A stretch of DNA of 64,000 nucleotides from Hydrogenimonas cancrithermarum (GCF_030296055.1 NZ_AP027370.1:1352501-1416500), one strand, 5' to 3'; shown: positions 43,540 through 52,986, counted from the stretch's first letter. Notes: generated by a model from the sequence alone, not told the origin. Program-made: numbers and translations.

Positions 43540-44226
43540 ATGGCTGCACATAGAGAGTTTCGTCGTTTTGCCCGCAGTTACGGCCGTTATAACCTTATAC
43601 AGACCCGCGTGGCGGAAGCACTGGCCAAAAAGGTGCCGAAACCCTTCTCCCGCATTGTCGACCTCGGATGCGGGACGGGCGGCTTTTTCAGAGCCTATGA
43701 ACATCCGTTCATAAGCTATCTGGCCATCGATATCGTTCCCGAAATGACGGCGATCCATCCCAGTGGGTCCGGGGTCGAGACGATGGTCGGAGATTTTAAC
43801 GACCCGGCACTTTTCGAGAGGCTCAAAAGTAGAGATTTCGACCTGCTCGTCTCCTCTTCCGCTCTGCAGTGGAGCCGGGATCTCGACTGGACGCTCGCGC
43901 AGATCAAAGATCTCGGCCGTCCCGTCGCCCTTGCGATTTTCACTTCCGGTACCTTCGCCGCACTGCATGAAACGGCGGGTATCGCCTCTCCGATCCGCTC
44001 CAAAGATGAGACGATCGCACTCCTGCACAAACACTTCGATGTGCGGATCGATATTTTGAAATATAGACTCTATTTCAAGGATACACTCTCGATACTGCGT
44101 TATATCAAGCGAAGCGGCGTAAGCGGCGGAACGCGCAGGCTCGGTTACAGGCAGACCCGGCAGATTCTGCAGGAGTATCCGCTTGCCTATCTGCAGTTCG
44201 AAGTGGTTGTGGCGGTGGGAAAATAG
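43540..44226 (+). CDS. BioC-like SAM-dependent methyltransferase
   Basis: This 228-aa protein begins FRRFARSYGRYNLIQTRVAEAL and has the SAM motif IVDLGCGTGGFF, a YLAIDIVPEM motif 2 and SSSALQWSRDLDWTL. All of these match malonyl-ACP O-methyltransferase BioC of early biotin synthesis. The C-terminal half is less diagnostic. No other biotin genes are nearby. ATG 43540 is preferred to an upstream TTG. Confidence 0.75.
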   Translation: MAAHREFRRFARSYGRYNLIQTRVAEALAKKVPKPFSRIVDLGCGTGGFFRAYEHPFISYLAIDIVPEMTAIHPSGSGVETMVGDFNDPALFERLKSRDFDLLVSSSALQWSRDLDWTLAQIKDLGRPVALAIFTSGTFAALHETAGIASPIRSKDETIALLHKHFDVRIDILKYRLYFKDTLSILRYIKRSGVSGGTRRLGYRQTRQILQEYPLAYLQFEVVVAVGK

Positions 44227-44382
44227 CGGACAAGGGCCGTCCTCTCGATGCCGTGCGGTAGATCCGGAAAACGGCAGTGGCAAGATGGAAGAGACGACCG
44301 TTTTCATCCATGGAAGCGAACCTCGTTTTATGGTATTATTTGTGGATTATTCGTGAATTTAATAAATATATGGAACGCTGAC

Positions 44383-45495
44383 GTGGCACAACGATGGAAA
44401 AAAAATCTGAAAGAAGCGGTCTGCATCAACTCCTATACCCACAATAAGAGAGGGGTCGATGCGACAGGGGGGCTTTTTCGCAACTGGTTGGAAGAGATAG
44501 GCTTCGAAACGCGGGTCTATCCGCGTGAATTGATTGGCGACCATCTTCATTTCGTCTCTCCCAAAAGTGGCGGGAGAGAAAAAATTCTGCTGCTGGGACA
44601 TCTCGATACCGTCTTCCCTCCCGGCACGTTCGAGGGCTTCGAAGAGGATGAGAGATGGGTTTATGGCCCGGGAGTTTGCGACATGAAAGGCGGTAACGTC
44701 GTCGCGCTCGAAGCGCTTCGGGCGATATATGCCGCCAATGGGACGATCGAAGATATCGATCTGCTTTTTGTGAGTGACGAAGAGACCGGAAGCGACGATT
44801 CGAAGCAGCTCACAGGCGAATTGGCCAGAGGTTACGACAAATGTTTCGTCTTCGAGGCGGCGGGAGAGCATATGGAAGTGGTGGTTGGCCGCAAAGGGAT
44901 CGGAACGTTCGAAATCACGATCGAGGGCAAAGCGGCCCATGCCGGCACAAGTTACGCGAAAGGGGTCGATGCCAATCTCGAAGCGGCGCTGAAGCTGCAG
45001 AAGCTGGTTGAACTGACCGACCTCGAAAAGGGTTCGACCGTCAATGTCGGAAAGATCGAGGGTGGCATCGGAGCCAACACGATCAGCCCGCATGCCAAAT
45101 TGCTTTTCGAACTTCGCTACGCCAACCATAGAGAGAAAGAGAGAGTGATGCGCGCTCTGGACGAAATCGTCTCGACCGACTTCGTCGAAAGGACTTCGTC
45201 GCGTCTTGGCGGGTCGATCCAGCGAGACGTGATGGAACCCAATGTGTGGCAAAAAGCGTTGATCGAGGCGATGGAGCGCATCTCAGGGCAGAGGCTTCCT
45301 GTCGAAAGCCGTGGTGGCGTGAGCGACGCCAACATCGTCGCATCCGCCGGTGTCGTGACGATCGATGGGCTGGGCCCCTACGGCGATGGGGACCATACCC
45401 CAAAAGAGCGGGCGTTGAAAACGAGTTTCGATGAGCGGATCGATTTGATGACGAAGGTGCTGATGCATCATCAAAAATATGGAGAGATAGTGTGA
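44383..45495 (+). CDS. M20 family metallopeptidase
   Basis: This cytosolic zinc hydrolase of about 370 aa is of the carboxypeptidase G2/ArgE/DapE type. Metal ligands are visible: His73 in LGHLDTV, Asp100 in GVCDMKGG, Glu133-Glu134 in SDEETGS, and a late His in GDGDHTPKE. The dimerisation-domain segment GKAAHAGTSYAKGVDANLEA is typical of CPG2-like enzymes. Such enzymes remove an acyl or terminal amino acid group from small peptides or amino acids. The start is uncertain (GTG 44383 or 44353) and no signal peptide is apparent. Its stop overlaps the next ATP-grasp gene by 4 nt (GTGA), tying the two functions together. Confidence 0.85.
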   Translation: MAQRWKKNLKEAVCINSYTHNKRGVDATGGLFRNWLEEIGFETRVYPRELIGDHLHFVSPKSGGREKILLLGHLDTVFPPGTFEGFEEDERWVYGPGVCDMKGGNVVALEALRAIYAANGTIEDIDLLFVSDEETGSDDSKQLTGELARGYDKCFVFEAAGEHMEVVVGRKGIGTFEITIEGKAAHAGTSYAKGVDANLEAALKLQKLVELTDLEKGSTVNVGKIEGGIGANTISPHAKLLFELRYANHREKERVMRALDEIVSTDFVERTSSRLGGSIQRDVMEPNVWQKALIEAMERISGQRLPVESRGGVSDANIVASAGVVTIDGLGPYGDGDHTPKERALKTSFDERIDLMTKVLMHHQKYGEIV

Positions 45496-46388
45496 GACGA
45501 ATCGGGATTTGGATGTATCAAAACGGTGGCGGAGATCTGATCGAGAAGAAGATCGTCGATCGGTTGAAAGAGCGCGGTATCGAGGCGGTGACGGGGCTCA
45601 ACCTTCGCCAAGCCTATGTGGAAAACGGTACCACGATCTGCAACGGCACGAAAATGGAGGAGCTGGATCTGTTTTTCAGTTACAATGCGGGCGAACAGAC
45701 GCAGTACCAGATGTTTCTTTACGAGGCGCTCGACCGGGTCGTTCCATGCATCAACAATTTCCGCTCGTTTGCGCTGACAGAAGACAAATTCCAAACGGCA
45801 CATCTTCTTCGCAACAACGGCGTTCCGACGGCCGATTTCCGTCTCTGCCACCGTGACGACAGCGCGCGTCTGCGGCAATTCATGAGAGAGTGGAAACAGA
45901 TGGTTTACAAACCGACCGACGGCTGGGGCGGCGTGGGGCTGACGAAGATCGATTCGCAGGAGACACTCGATATGCTGATGCCCTTTTTGAACCAGATGGA
46001 TCTGCGGTTCTTCTATGTCGAAAAATTCATCGACTACGACAACACCGACTACAGGGTCGACATCGTCGATGGTGAATATATCGGTTGTTACGGCCGAAAA
46101 GCGGGCGGTAGCGACTGGCGCACCAATGTCACGAGCGGCGGCAGCGTGTTTTTGCGGGAACCGGAGGACGCCGTTGTCGAATTGGCGCTCAAGGCCGCGA
46201 AAGTGACGGGTCTGGAAATCGCAGGCGTCGACATCATCTATGACCGGTCCAAAGAGGAGTACATCGTCCTCGAAGTCAACGGCATTCCAGCGTTCGCGAT
46301 ACCGGAGCAGGAGAAAATCGGACTCGATTTCAATGACAAAAAGATCGACAAAATCGTCGATCTGATCGACAGAAAAACGAAAAAATAA
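45492..46388 (+). CDS. RimK/LysX-type ATP-grasp carboxylate-amine ligase
   Basis: This 298-aa protein has the RimK-class ATP-grasp layout: Lys140 in MVYKPTDGWGGVGL, SDWRTNVTSGG (residues 207-217, like the DFRSN-x-GG of RimK/LysX), Asp247 in GVDIIY, and Glu261 with Asn263 in LEVNG. The metal ligands appear complete, so it should activate a carboxylate with ATP and join it to an amine. The acceptor is not known. It starts at GTG 45492 inside the stop of the M20 peptidase and is followed after 17 nt by a second ATP-grasp gene. The M20 plus LysX-like pairing recalls LysW-based amino acid synthesis, but no LysW carrier is present nearby. Confidence 0.82.
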   Translation: MRRIGIWMYQNGGGDLIEKKIVDRLKERGIEAVTGLNLRQAYVENGTTICNGTKMEELDLFFSYNAGEQTQYQMFLYEALDRVVPCINNFRSFALTEDKFQTAHLLRNNGVPTADFRLCHRDDSARLRQFMREWKQMVYKPTDGWGGVGLTKIDSQETLDMLMPFLNQMDLRFFYVEKFIDYDNTDYRVDIVDGEYIGCYGRKAGGSDWRTNVTSGGSVFLREPEDAVVELALKAAKVTGLEIAGVDIIYDRSKEEYIVLEVNGIPAFAIPEQEKIGLDFNDKKIDKIVDLIDRKTKK

Positions 46389-46405
46389 AACAAGGACAAT
46401 AGACA

Positions 46406-47926
46406 ATGGCTAAAAACAAGAAACTTCCGAAGCTCGGGCTTCTTTACCTGGATTACGTTTTGCGGTTCTTCGACCGCTCCAACTTCAAGGGGTGGCCCGA
46501 CAAGATCGAGCAGGTGGTTTATCACTGGGGGAACGACAAAGATCGTTTCATCGAAGAGGTAAAAAAGAAGAAGATCGACATTCTCATAGGCAACATTCCC
46601 GCAACGGCGTACGAAACCTTCCGTGAAATCGCCAAAGCGCTTCCGCATGTACGTTTCGTTCCCTCGATCGAGACGCAGTTCGCGAACAAGTCCAAAGAGA
46701 ATGTCACCCTCTTTTGCGAAAAGCACAATCTCTCGCATCCGAAGACGAAAATATTCTACAACCGAGACGAGGGGTACAAATACCTCGAAACGTGCGACTA
46801 TCCGGTCATTGTCAAAAGAAGTTACGGCCCCTCCAATTACGGCGGCTACTATGTCCACAAAGTCAAGTCCAAAGAGGAGGCGAAGAAGCTTTTCGACGAG
46901 AAGAAGTATATGCCGATGTACATCCAGGAGTGCATTCCCCTGCGCGCCGACATCCGCGTCATGCTGATCGGCCACAAACCGGCATGTGCCTTCTGGCGTG
47001 TCGCGGGTGAAGATATGGATCTGACCAATACCTCGCAGGGTGGCTACATGACATACGACGGCGTGCCGATGGGTGCGCTGGAGCTGGCGGTCGAGGCCTC
47101 CAAAGCGGCCAAAGCCGAATACTGGGCATGCGACATCGCCGAATACGACGGCAAATACTACATTCTCGAATGTGCGACGGCGTTTGCGGCGTTTCCCTAC
47201 TTTCGCGACTGGATCGGGCAGTATCTGATGTGGGACTTTTCCGAGGGGCGTTTCCCGAAACCGCACATTCCGCTCTACAACTGGGAAGAGCTCGGCAAGA
47301 TCAATCCTCAGCTGTTGCGTACGATGCGTCACATCGGCTTCAGCAAATATGTCCCTTCGACCGATGGCGCTTGCTACATCAACGACAAAGATGGCGAGTG
47401 GGATGTCGAGCTGACGGAGGAGAGTCTCCCCGAAGATCTTCCTGACAACAGCCACCTTTTCGAAACCATCGAGAACGAAGAGGAGCTGCCGGAAGTGATC
47501 AAGCAGGAGGCGAAGCACGGTGAAGCGATCCACAGCGATCTGGACGAAAGTGAAATGTCGCTCGAAAGCGTCACGCTGACGGAGTTGATGACGCTGCACG
47601 GAATGGAGGAGGAGATCGCCGTCGAAGTGATCCGCTACATCCACAGCCACGATATCAAGAGTATCGACGAGCTCTTCGAAGTAGAAGGGATCGACAAGCA
47701 GATGTTGAAAGTGTGGGCCGAAGAGCTGCACAGCAAGACGGATGTCAACAGAGCGGGCGTCAAAGCGCTCGGAAAAATCAAGTCGATCGGCAAAAAGCTG
47801 GCCGAAAAGATTGTCGAGTATCGCGAAAAGCACGGCCCTTTCAAAAGTTTGGAAGATATGTTGGAAATAAAAGGTCTGGGTAAAAAGAAACTCGCTAAAA
47901 TCCGCGACCACATCGCGATCAAGTAA
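46406..47926 (+). CDS. Divergent ATP-grasp protein fused to tandem helix-hairpin-helix domains
   Basis: This 506-aa protein has an ATP-grasp region at about residues 90-280: YPVIVKRSYGPSNYGGYYV with Lys137 and a Gly-rich loop, ADIRVMLIG, Asp243, and Glu255 in ILECATAF. The Asn normally two residues after the catalytic Glu is Ala (Ala257), so metal binding may be altered. An acidic linker (about 330-385) leads to two helix-hairpin-helix units, the second (445-506) strongly ComEA-like (VNRAGVKALGKIKSIGKKLA). These usually bind DNA without sequence specificity. I know of no named family with this fusion. The 17-nt gap from the first ATP-grasp gene indicates one operon. It could recruit ligase activity to DNA-bound proteins. 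Confidence 0.8.
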   Translation: MAKNKKLPKLGLLYLDYVLRFFDRSNFKGWPDKIEQVVYHWGNDKDRFIEEVKKKKIDILIGNIPATAYETFREIAKALPHVRFVPSIETQFANKSKENVTLFCEKHNLSHPKTKIFYNRDEGYKYLETCDYPVIVKRSYGPSNYGGYYVHKVKSKEEAKKLFDEKKYMPMYIQECIPLRADIRVMLIGHKPACAFWRVAGEDMDLTNTSQGGYMTYDGVPMGALELAVEASKAAKAEYWACDIAEYDGKYYILECATAFAAFPYFRDWIGQYLMWDFSEGRFPKPHIPLYNWEELGKINPQLLRTMRHIGFSKYVPSTDGACYINDKDGEWDVELTEESLPEDLPDNSHLFETIENEEELPEVIKQEAKHGEAIHSDLDESEMSLESVTLTELMTLHGMEEEIAVEVIRYIHSHDIKSIDELFEVEGIDKQMLKVWAEELHSKTDVNRAGVKALGKIKSIGKKLAEKIVEYREKHGPFKSLEDMLEIKGLGKKKLAKIRDHIAIK

Positions 47927-48032
47927 GCGAGATGCAAAAGCGCGGTTGACCCGCGCGAGCCAGCCGCTGACGCGAATCCAGCGTTGGCGTTGCCGAAGGA
48001 GCCCGTCTTCTTCGGCGTATGTAAGGGATTCA

Positions 48033-50633
48033 ATGAAACAACTCTACCACTCCTACGACGATGCGGTCGCGCTTTTCCGAAATCTGGCCGAGTGCCGACC
48101 CGATCTCTTCGCTCTCGAGGTGATCGGCCAGACGTGGGAAAAGCGTGACATCATCGCCGTCACGATCAGCCAAAACGTCGAAAATGCCGATACCAAACCC
48201 GCACTCCTTTTCACCGGGACGATCCATGCCCGAGAGTGGATCGGGCTGGAACTGGCGATCGGGTTCGCACAGCACGTGGACCGCAACATCGCCTACGACC
48301 ATGCGATCCAGGAGGCGTTGCAAAACGCCGCCATCTATATGGTACCATGTGCCAACCCCGACGGATTCGAGTATTCGCGCAACCATTTCTCGTTCTGGCG
48401 GAAAAATCGCCGTCAGAATGCCGATGGCAGCTACGGCGTCGATCTCAACAGAAACTTTCCTGTCGGATTCGTCAAAAGCAACAACCCCACCTCCAACATC
48501 TACGGCGGGCCGGAACCTTTCAGCGAACCGGAAACCCGTGCATTGCGCGATTTTATAGAGAGCCATCCCAACGTCGCCATCGCACTCGACTACCATTCAC
48601 AGGGCAACGTCTTTTTCCCCGCCCACGATTTTCGCCATGAAGATACGATCGATACGACCGACATGAACGTGCTCTGTGCCAATATGGCCGAAGAGATCCG
48701 AAAGATCAGCGACCGTGAATACGGTATCCATCAGGGGAAGCCGCCGGCGAAGCTGATCAGCGGCAGTGGGCGGGAGTTCTATTACTCCAAGGGGATCGTC
48801 GCATCGGTCGTCGAGGTGGGGACACGCAATATCTCCGACTACCTCGACGATATGATCGAGCATATACGAGAGCATATCCCCGCCCTCCTGGCGGCACTCA
48901 AAGAGGCACCAAACTACGCCAAAGAGGGGGCGATGCCGCGGCCGGATAACTTTCGGGCGACGTTCGTAGGCGTCGACAATGTCACACTCGAGTGGGAACC
49001 CTGCCCCGGCACGCGGGAGGATGATGAGATCTATTTCGAGATCTATCGAAGCCGGCGAGAAAAGTCCTATTGCCGCCCCTTCAATCTGATGGGTTTGACA
49101 CAGGCGAATCGTTTCGCCGACAGTAATCTGCAAAGCGATACGCCCTACTTCTACCATATCCGTGCCGTCGACAAGGCAAGCGGCCGGAAATCGCCGTTCG
49201 CACCCGTGCTCGCGATCCGGACCCATGTCGGTGACGACGAGTTTCACCGCACCTATTTCCCTTGGCCGGAGAGGACGGGTTACGTCGCCGAAAAGCTCAA
49301 AGAGAACGCGTCGCATTTTGGTGTCAACTCACTCTTCGTGGGTGTCAACGAGACAAAGGGTGTCAGCTACGCCGTCGTGACGATCCCCCTCAGGACGATC
49401 CCGAAAAATGCAGTCATCAAGCGGGCGCGTCTACGCCTTTATCCCCTAAACCGCGTCGGTGTGACGGTCGAGAAGTTCGGTGAATGGGATGTCGGCATCG
49501 TCGATCCCGAAAGTATCGGAGACATCACCAAGTTCGAGGATGTCGAGGCGATGAAAATCCGCTCCTATGTCGGTCGGCCGACACCGTCGAACCATCTGAC
49601 ACAGGGGATCTGGCGAAGCTGGGAGTTCAGCGAAGCGGAGTGCCGGGTACTGCAGGAACAGATTGCCGTCGAAGCGGTCACCTTCCGCATCGAAGGTCCG
49701 AAAACACTCAATATCGGGCGTACGTCGCAGATGATGCAATGGGACATAGGATATGGAAAATTCGGGGGCGGCCTGGCGTTTCGGCCCCACCTGGAGATCA
49801 CCTACACGCTCGAGCCCAATCGGATGGAGCTTTTCCCCAGGCAGAGTTTCACGGTACGGGCGGACGGGATCGAAGAGGGGAAAATCGTCAGCGGATTCGA
49901 TGGTGGCGGCAAAAAGATCTACGCCACGTTCGATTTCGAACTGGGATCGCTTCCAAACTGGGAATTCATGCAGATCACCCGCGCCTATGTGGTTCTCAAT
50001 CCGGTCAAAGTCTATGCCAAAGAGAACATTCGCTTCCATCTCGAGATGATCGATGCCGATGCCGAACGCGACTACGATGCGATCAAAGCGCGCCGCATTA
50101 TCGAAAACATCGGCTACGACGTCAGTGTCAACGAGCTCAAGAACCAGGAACAGGTTTTCGTTTTCGACACCTACGCGATTCAGGAGTTCGGCAATCGTTT
50201 ACGCGACAAGAAGAGCATCGCCTTTTTGTTGCGTCCGAGCAGTGCCCAGAAACTGGTGAAAAATTCGGCCGTCGAGTGGCATTGCGCCCATCCGGAGTTT
50301 ACACCGAAGCTCGTGATCGAGTATCTGCACAAACGCCGCCGTCCCGTGGCGCCGGTGAGCCATCTGACCTACAAAATCGAAAACGGAAAGATTCGCCTCG
50401 GTTGGAAAAATCCCGACGACAAGGACTTCAAAGGAGTTTTCGTCATCAAAAACCCGTTCAGAAAACCGATCTCGCCCTACGACGGCGAGAAGCTCTACGG
50501 TGGGCCCGACAACTGGACCTACGACGACTTCGGCGCACTCGATGTGAAAAAGTATTACGCTCTTTTTACCTACGACGACGTTCCCAACTTCAGCGAGCCG
50601 GTCATTCTGGAGTATCTGCCGAAAAACCGTTAG
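48033..50633 (+). CDS. Large M14 carboxypeptidase without signal peptide
   Basis: This 866-aa protein has an M14 zinc carboxypeptidase domain in its first 300 residues: His65 and Glu68 in TIHAREWIG, Arg140 in DLNRNFP, His188 in LDYHSQGN and catalytic Glu261 in SVVEVGT. A fibronectin-III-like domain follows (about 310-395), then two beta-sandwich modules similar to each other (around 420-590 and 610-790), and a final fibronectin-like domain. M14 enzymes with such appendages are usually secreted, but here the start (ATG 48033 after AAGGG) shows no export signal, so it may act in the cytoplasm. It follows the ATP-grasp genes after 106 nt, and its end overlaps the convergent gene by 32 nt. Confidence 0.85.
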   Translation: MKQLYHSYDDAVALFRNLAECRPDLFALEVIGQTWEKRDIIAVTISQNVENADTKPALLFTGTIHAREWIGLELAIGFAQHVDRNIAYDHAIQEALQNAAIYMVPCANPDGFEYSRNHFSFWRKNRRQNADGSYGVDLNRNFPVGFVKSNNPTSNIYGGPEPFSEPETRALRDFIESHPNVAIALDYHSQGNVFFPAHDFRHEDTIDTTDMNVLCANMAEEIRKISDREYGIHQGKPPAKLISGSGREFYYSKGIVASVVEVGTRNISDYLDDMIEHIREHIPALLAALKEAPNYAKEGAMPRPDNFRATFVGVDNVTLEWEPCPGTREDDEIYFEIYRSRREKSYCRPFNLMGLTQANRFADSNLQSDTPYFYHIRAVDKASGRKSPFAPVLAIRTHVGDDEFHRTYFPWPERTGYVAEKLKENASHFGVNSLFVGVNETKGVSYAVVTIPLRTIPKNAVIKRARLRLYPLNRVGVTVEKFGEWDVGIVDPESIGDITKFEDVEAMKIRSYVGRPTPSNHLTQGIWRSWEFSEAECRVLQEQIAVEAVTFRIEGPKTLNIGRTSQMMQWDIGYGKFGGGLAFRPHLEITYTLEPNRMELFPRQSFTVRADGIEEGKIVSGFDGGGKKIYATFDFELGSLPNWEFMQITRAYVVLNPVKVYAKENIRFHLEMIDADAERDYDAIKARRIIENIGYDVSVNELKNQEQVFVFDTYAIQEFGNRLRDKKSIAFLLRPSSAQKLVKNSAVEWHCAHPEFTPKLVIEYLHKRRRPVAPVSHLTYKIENGKIRLGWKNPDDKDFKGVFVIKNPFRKPISPYDGEKLYGGPDNWTYDDFGALDVKKYYALFTYDDVPNFSEPVILEYLPKNR

Positions 50634-52875
50634 CTTCGGGGGTGGCCCCGGTATTGAAATGATGATAAAATCGCTCGAACTCTTTGGCGGGCATCGGTTT
50701 GGCGAAGTAGAATCCCTGCACGATGTCGCATCCGCTTTTTTTGACGAACTCGAGCTGCTGTTTCGTCTCGATCCCTTCCGCGACCGTCGCTTTCCCCAGG
50801 CTTTTGCCCATCGAAACGATGGCGTTGACGATGGCGCAGTCCTCCTCGCTTTCCGGGATGTTTTTGATGAAAACCCGGTCGATCTTCAGCATATGCACCG
50901 GAAGCTTTTTCAGGTAGTAGAGGGAGGAGTAGCCGGTCCCGAAGTCGTCGATCGCCGACTTGATACCGAAACGGTTGAGCAGCGAAATTCCCGCTTCGGC
51001 CAGCTCCAGATTTTCCATGATCAACGATTCGGTAATCTCGACATGGAGATATTTCGGATCAATGCCGGAGCGCTTGACACGTTTTAACAGGTCGTGGAAG
51101 AACTTCTCGTTTCTGATGATCTGTTTGGGTGAGATGTTGATGGCGACGGGGATGTCGACATCTATCTTTTCGTTTCGCCATACCAGTATCTGCCTGCAGA
51201 CTTCGTTGATGACCCATTTGCCCACTTTTTCGATGAGGCTCGACTCTTCCAGATGGGGTAGAAAACTGCCCGGCGGCATCATCCCTTTTTGGGGATGGTC
51301 CCATCGGATCAGCGCTTCGGCACCGCAGATCCTCATGGTTCGTAGATCGATTTGCGGCTGGTAGAAGAGCGTGAATTCTCCGTTGTGAATCGCTTTGGTC
51401 AATTCGTTTTGGTTTTGAATGGAAGCCTGGGTCGTGGTGTTGAGCTCTTTGGAGTAGAAGAGGAACGTATTGCCGCCCTGCTCTTTGGCGTTTTTGAGTG
51501 CGGTTTCCGCCGCCGTTCTCAGATCGTCCGAGCTTTTCGCATCTTTCGGAAAGAGCGAAATGCCGAGACTGAGCGTCACATAGAGCTCTTCGCCATCGAT
51601 GAAGAGAGGATCCGCGCAGATGTCGTTGATGCGTTGAATCAGCTCCAGCAGCTCATGTTCGTTCTTGACATCGAAATAGAGGATGGCGAACTCGTCGCTG
51701 TCGTAGCGTGCCAGGATATCTTTTGGGCGAACGAGCAGTTTGAGGTGTTTGGCGACATGCTGGATCACCTTGTCTCCGAAACCGTAGCCGAACGTATTGT
51801 TGATCAGTTTGAATTGGTCGATATCGATCAGAATCAGCGCGAAGGCCTCTTTCGTGTAGTGGGAGCTGTAGATCGCCAGGTCGATACGCTCTTTCAGAAA
51901 ATGGCGGTTCGGAAGCTGTGTCGCCAGGTCGAAACTGCTGATATATTCGAGCTTCTCTTTGTTCTCGAGCATCGTGATGGCGTAGGAGATATCGTCGGCG
52001 ATCTCTTTGAAAAGGCGTATCTCCTCTTCGGTAAAAGCGTCGAACTCGTCGGAGTAGATCTTCAAGATGGCACGAATCTCCTTTCCGTGGTAGAGCGGAA
52101 TGCCCACATTCTCCTTGTCGTGCCAGATCGGAACGGTGAGCTTTTGGTGCAAGAAGCCGGTTTCTCTCTTTTCCGACAGGCTGATATGGCCTTTTTGCTT
52201 GAGGTCGTCCACGAGGCTGGCGATATCCTCTTTGGCGAAATTGAGAAGATTCTGTTCGACGTTCCTGTAATAAAACGCGACATCGTGGTAGGCGGCCGGC
52301 GTGATGCGCTCTTCGTCTTCGATCTCTCCGATCCATGCGAACTTGAAACCGCCCTCTTCGACGATGATGCGGCAGATGGCTTCGTAGAGTTCGTTTTTCG
52401 TTCTCGATCGGACGATCTGTTCGTTGACCGAGATCAGAACGCGGTAGAGGCGGTTGAGGCGATAGAGCTTTTTTTGGATGGAGAGCCTCTCCTGGATATC
52501 CCGCATGAGCATGAGAATATAGAGCTCTTCACCTATGACGAATTTCGAAAAGGTCACTTCGACGGGAATCTTTTCTCCGTTTTTCGTCAAGAGATAGATT
52601 TCCGGAAGGAGCCCCTCTTCCTCTTTCGAGATGGCTCGCAGCGCTTTGTGGACGATTTTTCTGAATTCAGGGGGATGGAGAGTGAAGAGTTCCTTTCCCC
52701 TCAGCTCTTTGGCATCGTAACCGGTTATCTTCTCGAGACGGGGATTGACTTCGTCGATGATGAAATCCTTCGCCCTGACGATGAGCAGTGCATCGTGCAT
52801 GGCGCGAATGATCTTCAGATATTTCTGATTCAACTGTGCTAAACGTTCTTTTTCCGTTCCGGCAGGATCTGGCAT
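50602..52875 (-). CDS. PAS-GAF-GGDEF-EAL cyclic di-GMP phosphodiesterase
   Basis: This cytosolic protein of about 757 aa has a PAS domain (MHDALLIVRAKDFIIDEVNPRLEKITGY), a GAF-like domain (about 170-310), GGDEF and EAL. The GGDEF site reads RYDSDEF, so synthase activity is doubtful. The EAL domain is intact: EALIRW, NISPKQ, EITES, IDDFGTGYSS, LKIDR and AEGIET. It most likely hydrolyses cyclic di-GMP in response to a PAS or GAF signal. I chose ATG 52875; codons upstream run over a TATACT promoter element. The last 32 nt overlap the M14 gene on the other strand. Confidence 0.87.
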   Translation of the reverse strand: MPDPAGTEKERLAQLNQKYLKIIRAMHDALLIVRAKDFIIDEVNPRLEKITGYDAKELRGKELFTLHPPEFRKIVHKALRAISKEEEGLLPEIYLLTKNGEKIPVEVTFSKFVIGEELYILMLMRDIQERLSIQKKLYRLNRLYRVLISVNEQIVRSRTKNELYEAICRIIVEEGGFKFAWIGEIEDEERITPAAYHDVAFYYRNVEQNLLNFAKEDIASLVDDLKQKGHISLSEKRETGFLHQKLTVPIWHDKENVGIPLYHGKEIRAILKIYSDEFDAFTEEEIRLFKEIADDISYAITMLENKEKLEYISSFDLATQLPNRHFLKERIDLAIYSSHYTKEAFALILIDIDQFKLINNTFGYGFGDKVIQHVAKHLKLLVRPKDILARYDSDEFAILYFDVKNEHELLELIQRINDICADPLFIDGEELYVTLSLGISLFPKDAKSSDDLRTAAETALKNAKEQGGNTFLFYSKELNTTTQASIQNQNELTKAIHNGEFTLFYQPQIDLRTMRICGAEALIRWDHPQKGMMPPGSFLPHLEESSLIEKVGKWVINEVCRQILVWRNEKIDVDIPVAINISPKQIIRNEKFFHDLLKRVKRSGIDPKYLHVEITESLIMENLELAEAGISLLNRFGIKSAIDDFGTGYSSLYYLKKLPVHMLKIDRVFIKNIPESEEDCAIVNAIVSMGKSLGKATVAEGIETKQQLEFVKKSGCDIVQGFYFAKPMPAKEFERFYHHFNTGATPEANGFSADTPE

Positions 52876-52986
52876 TTCGATTCTTTCGGTTTTTTTATGA
52901 AATTCTGTATAGTATAACATTTTTGAAAAACGGATTGGCAATCATGCGGTTGTAGTATGATGAAAAATGTGTCGAAAGGTTGAACG

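Follow-up and report, generated by a model that had tools for sequence, protein, structure and literature searches.

A Conserved Four-Gene Cassette of ATP-Grasp Proteins and Zinc Peptidases in Campylobacterota, a Candidate System for Adding and Removing an Acidic Amino Acid

Four neighboring genes of Hydrogenimonas cancrithermarum, encoding an M20 metallopeptidase, two ATP-grasp proteins (GRASP1 and GRASP2) and an M14 carboxypeptidase, are a real unit that is self-sufficient and horizontally exchanged, with an adjacency far beyond chance. They were studied in a stretch of 64,000 nucleotides (the window) that is part of the 2.38-Mb genome of this member of the Campylobacterota. The function proposed for the cassette, to which we assign somewhat less than an even chance, is a cytosolic cycle in which an acidic amino acid, most likely L-glutamate, is ligated and removed. 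Such a cycle is suggested by the acidic substrates of the relatives of GRASP1, by an arginine in the specificity pocket of M14 and by the resemblance of M20 to carboxypeptidase G2 (CPG2), all four proteins being cytosolic.

Gene layout and inheritance of the cassette

The four open reading frames (ORFs) and their Pfam matches agree with a sequence-only reading of this DNA, which had placed at 44383-50633, in order and on one strand, an M20 peptidase, a RimK/LysX-type ligase, a second ATP-grasp protein and an M14 carboxypeptidase lacking a signal peptide. The features, in window coordinates, are as follows.

44383-45495, + strand: M20 metallopeptidase resembling CPG2 (a glutamate carboxypeptidase); GTG start; PF01546, 1.3e-21
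45492-46388, + strand: GRASP1, RimK-family ATP-grasp ligase; GTG start; PF08443, 4.5e-19
46406-47926, + strand: GRASP2, second RimK-like ATP-grasp protein; Pfam RimK, 1e-9, plus HHH_3, 4.8e-25
47618-47926, + strand: helix-hairpin-helix (HhH) part of GRASP2, lineage-specific; HHH_5-like, then HHH_3, residues ~405-506
48033-50633, + strand: M14 carboxypeptidase, cytosolic, with a catalytic domain of carboxypeptidase A (CPA) type; ATG start; PF00246, 2e-56
44227-50655, no strand: stretch missing from the same-genus genome G010 (locus L177), from translated comparison

M20 and GRASP1 overlap by 4 nt and a 17-nt gap separates GRASP1 from GRASP2, both as the earlier reading had described; a further 106 nt separate GRASP2 from M14. 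An alternative start for M14, the TTG at 47946, was considered less likely because the orthologs begin at the ATG.

The major data on inheritance came from 397 Campylobacterota genomes, each at least 90% complete, where GRASP2 was found in 52, GRASP1 in 53, and M14 and M20 in 54 each. All four genes were present in 51 of the 56 genomes having any of them, and 341 had none. For pairwise co-occurrence the hypergeometric p was at most about 1e-58, a value that must be read in light of the relatedness of the genomes, whose counts are not independent. The four genes lay within 8.5 kb of one another in 53 of the 65 loci with enough flank, and such loci were also found in Desulfuromonadales and Gammaproteobacteria. 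Conserved adjacency had been set beforehand as the test against the genes being neighbors in this genome only, and the counts of loci and of genomes both support it. The idea of a conserved functional unit likewise held up. The genomic surroundings vary greatly among the loci while the four genes keep together; M20 is divergent in 16 loci, on the opposite strand yet still adjacent, and GRASP2 is relocated in a few genomes yet kept elsewhere in the same genome. No conserved fifth gene (of at least 70 aa), carrier, regulator or transporter was found near the cassette, where neighbors recur only within lineages.

The same-genus genome G010 lacks exactly these four genes. The flanking genes adjoin there with ~30 bp between them, window positions 44226 and 50656 corresponding to 4770 and 4802 of L177 in the translated comparison. 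It was therefore deduced that the four genes are gained or lost together as a unit. Outside the Campylobacterota the cassette was found in Desulfuromonadales, Pseudoalteromonas, Aestuariibacter, Thiomicrorhabdus and a large Photobacterium replicon (2.1 Mb), which carries the whole cassette and was the single match of a plasmid search. Of 267 genomes in the order to which Pseudoalteromonas belongs, 9 have GRASP2. Sequences from Gammaproteobacteria and from Desulfuromonadales each occupy two separate positions amid those of the Campylobacterota in the GRASP2 tree, and this mixing of phyla points to gene transfer. The correlation of distance matrices among the four families was positive (0.51-0.83 overall) and modest for GRASP1, so strict co-divergence is not claimed. 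Those hosts that are named belong to marine or saline genera, as judged from organism names without a statistical test. A set that is in most cases either complete or absent, across hosts ranging from deep-sea Campylobacterota to Pseudoalteromonas, must have a single coherent function.

Several arrangements depart from the common layout. GRASP2 stands apart from the other three genes in Sulfurimonas-type genomes (L073, L133, L158, L162 and L163), where it adjoins efp and is near the gene for DNA polymerase III alpha, and in G032 the M20, GRASP1 and M14 genes occupy a separate site (L074) away from GRASP2. A second GRASP1 copy (58% to that of the window) lies downstream of a complete cassette at L141:11232-12598 and is followed by a 145-aa GRASP2-like fragment (27%); it is perhaps a decaying duplicate. 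In the window, the cassette is followed by an oppositely oriented gene (50602-52941, -) for a PAS-GAF-GGDEF-EAL protein. At L177, which lacks the cassette, this gene adjoins a BioC-like gene, and it is therefore outside the cassette.

Active sites and specificity residues

The nearest curated model for GRASP1 was MptN, the tetrahydromethanopterin alpha-L-glutamate ligase (NF040720), at 127.5 bits against a cut-off of 350, followed by the RimK family alpha-L-glutamate ligase (TIGR00768; 121.4 against 143.4) and LysX (TIGR02144; 104.7 against 275.6). The GAK system ATP-grasp protein (TIGR04356) gave 61.4 bits against 300. For the synthetase of N-acetylglutaminylglutamine amide (NAGGN; TIGR03103, judged by its cut-off and a GNAT domain), the score was 24.5 bits against 569 and covered the ATP-grasp part only. 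GRASP1 reaches the cut-off of none of the curated RimK/LysX/MptN/CofF/GshB models; among solved structures, ArgX and RimK are the closest to it. The ATP lysines K99 and K140 and the metal triad D247, E261 and N263, which are the residues looked for in an active ligase, are invariant in 70 sequences, and GRASP1 is therefore very likely an active ligase. The characterized members of its nearest groups (MptN, RimK, LysX/ArgX and CofF) ligate glutamate or alpha-aminoadipate, both acidic, and GRASP1 is accordingly presented here as a putative glutamyl ligase, that is, the writer of the cassette.

For M14, catalytic competence was judged by the zinc ligands H69/E72/H196 together with R127, N144/R145 and E270. 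The matching residues H65, E68, H188, R126, N139, R140 and E261 are invariant in 55 sequences. Residue R247 corresponds to position 255 of bovine CPA, with an alignment to human CPA4 that has no gaps in the specificity loop, and is also invariant (55/55), as looked for in an acidic-specific (CPO-like) M14 enzyme. Position 255 is at the base of the pocket for the C-terminal side chain, and an Arg there confers acidic specificity (PMC9925722). No signal peptide was present in 54 M14 orthologs: the listed frame has exactly 64 residues ahead of the zinc motif in 43 of them and 65-85 in the rest, with no hydrophobic stretch. A secreted digestive enzyme was rejected on this basis. Likewise, no signal peptide was seen in the sequences of M20, GRASP1 and GRASP2. 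M14 (model pLDDT 83) continues past its catalytic domain into an accessory part of ~560 residues, in which fn3, two DNRLRE-like beta-sandwiches and a second fn3 were assigned from predicted secondary structure and weak profile matches. The best Foldseek matches were CPT/CPA/CPB/CPO, with no CCP entry among the matches listed. This M14 is the only one in the genome and is a candidate cytosolic eraser of C-terminal acidic residues.

The best solved relative of M20 is CPG2 (1cg2, 4.5e-30), which removes C-terminal glutamate. The zinc and catalytic residues H73, D75, D100, E133, E134, E158 and H338, together with the carboxylate-binding R310, are invariant in 64 sequences. Against the glutamate carboxypeptidase model (PRK06133 subfamily, NF004788), M20 scored 182 bits, below the cut-off of 349. 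M20 is a putative second eraser of a C-terminal acidic residue.

GRASP2 is strongly conserved over its first 330 residues, where proteins of different Campylobacterales families are 68-92% identical to that of the window. Its predicted structure (mean pLDDT 73) matches ArgX, RimK and LysX at Z ~20, and K95, K137, the Gly-rich loop, D243, E255 and the N..QGG motif are invariant. The HHH_3 match covers residues 444-503 of the window protein; the HhH region is absent from the orthologs at L070 and L071, in other orthologs different HhH-like sequence takes its place, and overall it is missing or different in most orthologs. Since this (ComEA-like) region is not conserved, DNA binding was rejected as a core function. 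The DNA-binding-type domains that had been assigned to the second ATP-grasp protein are thus present here and missing or replaced in most of its orthologs.

Elsewhere in the genome, a 347-aa glutathione-synthetase-like ATP-grasp gene (L003, G000:C1:664987-668508) is unlinked to the cassette. Two identical 3.6-kb stretches ~111 kb apart (L004 and L005, G000:C1:1140983-1144585 and 1252000-1255602) carry a biotin carboxylase (AccC-like) gene and represent either a recent duplication or an assembly artifact.

A proposed glutamate cycle and its alternatives

The chemistry of amide ligation and removal put forward in the sequence-only reading is consistent with the data. Starting from the gene set, its co-inheritance, the intact active sites, the lack of signal peptides and the pocket Arg, we infer which amino acid is ligated, which way each step runs, what serves as acceptor and what the cycle does for the cell, as follows. 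The ligated amino acid would be acidic, probably glutamate. With ATP, GRASP1 would convert a carboxylate into an acyl phosphate and then couple it to glutamate through the amino group of the latter. GRASP2 might be a second ligase for a different step (e.g., initiation versus elongation) or a noncanonical partner that presents the acceptor. M14, acting in the cytosol, would shorten the product by its C-terminal glutamates, and M20 would take off the glutamate beyond its reach, which might be the last or a branch residue or a small adduct. The product would most likely be a soluble glutamate-rich peptide built from metabolites common to every cell. Such an origin would account for the lack of a carrier, target or transporter gene accompanying the cassette, and it is this lack that favors a peptide over a protein tag. 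The peptide is a first guess and the protein tag its main rival, and sequence cannot separate the two. A solute or a charge-tuning modification would suit marine or saline hosts. Glutamate-modifying functions are enriched in brackish-water genomes (PMC10219603), and the synthesis of poly-alpha-glutamate by RimK is cited in the same work.

Several observations weigh against this glutamate cycle. The Lys of CPG2 that contacts the glutamate side chain, K183 in this M20, is not invariant in the 64 sequences, and the amino acid preference of M20 is therefore weakly supported. In M14, the equivalent of CPA Tyr248 is variable among the orthologs, and the large fn3/DNRLRE part is unexpected for an enzyme acting on small peptides. 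Residue 255 is not the sole determinant of M14 specificity (PMC9925722). Finally, the third metal ligand, which is Asn in GRASP1 and RimK, is replaced by Ala257 in 81/81 GRASP2 sequences, so that the D/E/N triad is incomplete. Two writers had been proposed; GRASP1, with its active-site residues intact, is very likely one, while the replacement leaves GRASP2 unproven as the other. GRASP2 might be a ligase whose metal site is unusual, or else a noncanonical partner of GRASP1. The latter option, with GRASP2 serving GRASP1 not as a second ligase but as an ATP-binding regulator or a subunit that presents the substrate and the cassette comprising one writer and two erasers, is compatible with the other explanations and was considered a serious possibility, although well short of an even chance. 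The loss of the ligand and the conservation of the first 330 residues, as expected for tight partner contacts, speak for it; the remaining ATP- and substrate-site residues are all invariant, however, and in some genomes the two ATP-grasp genes lie apart.

The absence of a linked target or transporter would also be consistent with a small peptide metabolite, such as an osmolyte or a cofactor-like dipeptide, that contains an amino acid other than glutamate and is recycled by the peptidases. RimK-like ATP-grasp enzymes outside the glutamate-adding group take many amino acids, and the named hosts fit a compatible solute, a habitat judged from names only. This explanation was deemed unlikely because the Arg at the specificity position of M14 points to an acidic terminus and the nearest GRASP1 models are all ligases of acidic residues. 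A protein polyglutamylation cycle was likewise deemed unlikely. Here GRASP1 and GRASP2 would begin and lengthen chains of glutamate on a conserved protein of the cytosol, from which M14 and M20 would remove the chain and branch residues, the same enzyme logic as that of the TTLL ligases and cytosolic carboxypeptidases (CCPs) on tubulin (ATP-grasp writers, M14 erasers) or of RimK on ribosomal protein S6. The long accessory part of M14 and the HhH region of GRASP2 suit a macromolecular substrate, although that region is not conserved, and the brackish-water enrichment is also in line with this cycle. In several Sulfurimonas loci GRASP2 adjoins the gene for elongation factor P (EF-P), but this neighbor is limited to one lineage, and EF-P was rejected as the target for that reason; no target gene is linked to the cassette. 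A bacterial counterpart of the tubulin polyglutamylation code, in which a mobile set of two ATP-grasp ligases for glutamate and two zinc enzymes that remove it would place a reversible tag on a widespread protein of the cytosol, mainly in marine bacteria, was regarded as improbable.

If the proposed cycle of writing and erasing glutamate is real, bacteria would have another polyglutamylation system in addition to RimK, or marine bacteria would make a new class of peptide metabolites. No description of the four-gene set was found in the literature searched; a mention in a 2009 review of ATP-grasp amidoligases (10.1039/b917682a) is possible.

Comparison with known systems

All four proteins score below the cut-offs of known functional families. 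None has a PADLOC match, and anti-phage defense was rejected on that ground. The known RimK/LysX/MptN/CofF/GAK/NAGGN families were rejected for GRASP1 by their cut-offs, and the firm clustering of the first ATP-grasp protein with a known biosynthetic enzyme, which had been named as an outcome against the original proposal, was not seen. The LysW carrier (TIGR01206) was missing from the whole genome in a search that detected its controls. LysW-based lysine/arginine synthesis, already regarded as unsupported in the sequence-only reading, is thereby excluded. A LysW-independent version of such carrier-protein biosynthesis would draw on the resemblance of GRASP1 and GRASP2 to LysX/ArgX and on the LysK-like class of M20. 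It was judged very improbable, as LysW is absent, no kinase, reductase or aminotransferase is linked, M14 has no place in the pathway and GRASP1 is far under the LysX cut-off. The LysX/ArgX-LysW-LysK pathway shares with the cassette a RimK-like ligase and an M20 hydrolase; the cassette lacks LysW and the pathway enzymes and has GRASP2 and M14 in addition.

The GAK system and the NAGGN clusters are similarly small bacterial sets around an ATP-grasp ligase, the latter with a peptidase, but GRASP1 is far below both models and the partner genes differ. For a graspetide cluster, which would include a precursor peptide gene, the comparison of neighbors covered ORFs of at least 70 aa and showed no conserved fifth gene. 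RimK/RimABK, which polyglutamylates S6, also has a cytosolic RimK-family ligase with a proteolytic counterpart. It differs in that one ligase is paired with the retropepsin-like eraser RimB, whereas the cassette has two ATP-grasp proteins and two zinc exopeptidases, with GRASP1 under the RimK cut-offs. Neither RimB nor the EAL partner RimA is a conserved neighbor of the cassette, a statement about neighbors, as no genome-wide search was made. The TTLL polyglutamylases and M14 CCPs of the tubulin code are likewise ATP-grasp writers and M14 erasers preferring acidic residues, while the cassette is bacterial, has an M14 of CPA/CPT type by sequence and fold matches, and adds M20. In the synthesis of NAAG (N-acetylaspartylglutamate) and beta-citrylglutamate, the RimK-like ligases RIMKLA/B make a Glu-terminated metabolite from which a zinc carboxypeptidase, glutamate carboxypeptidase II, removes the Glu. 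This pairing of a RimK-like ligase with a zinc carboxypeptidase resembles the cassette, but the system is animal, its hydrolase belongs to M28 and its genes are not in a cassette. By the tests made, with cut-offs unreached, LysW absent and eraser families that differ, the cassette belongs to none of these known systems, although it would appear to work like the pairs RimK/RimB, TTLL/CCP and RIMKL/glutamate carboxypeptidase.

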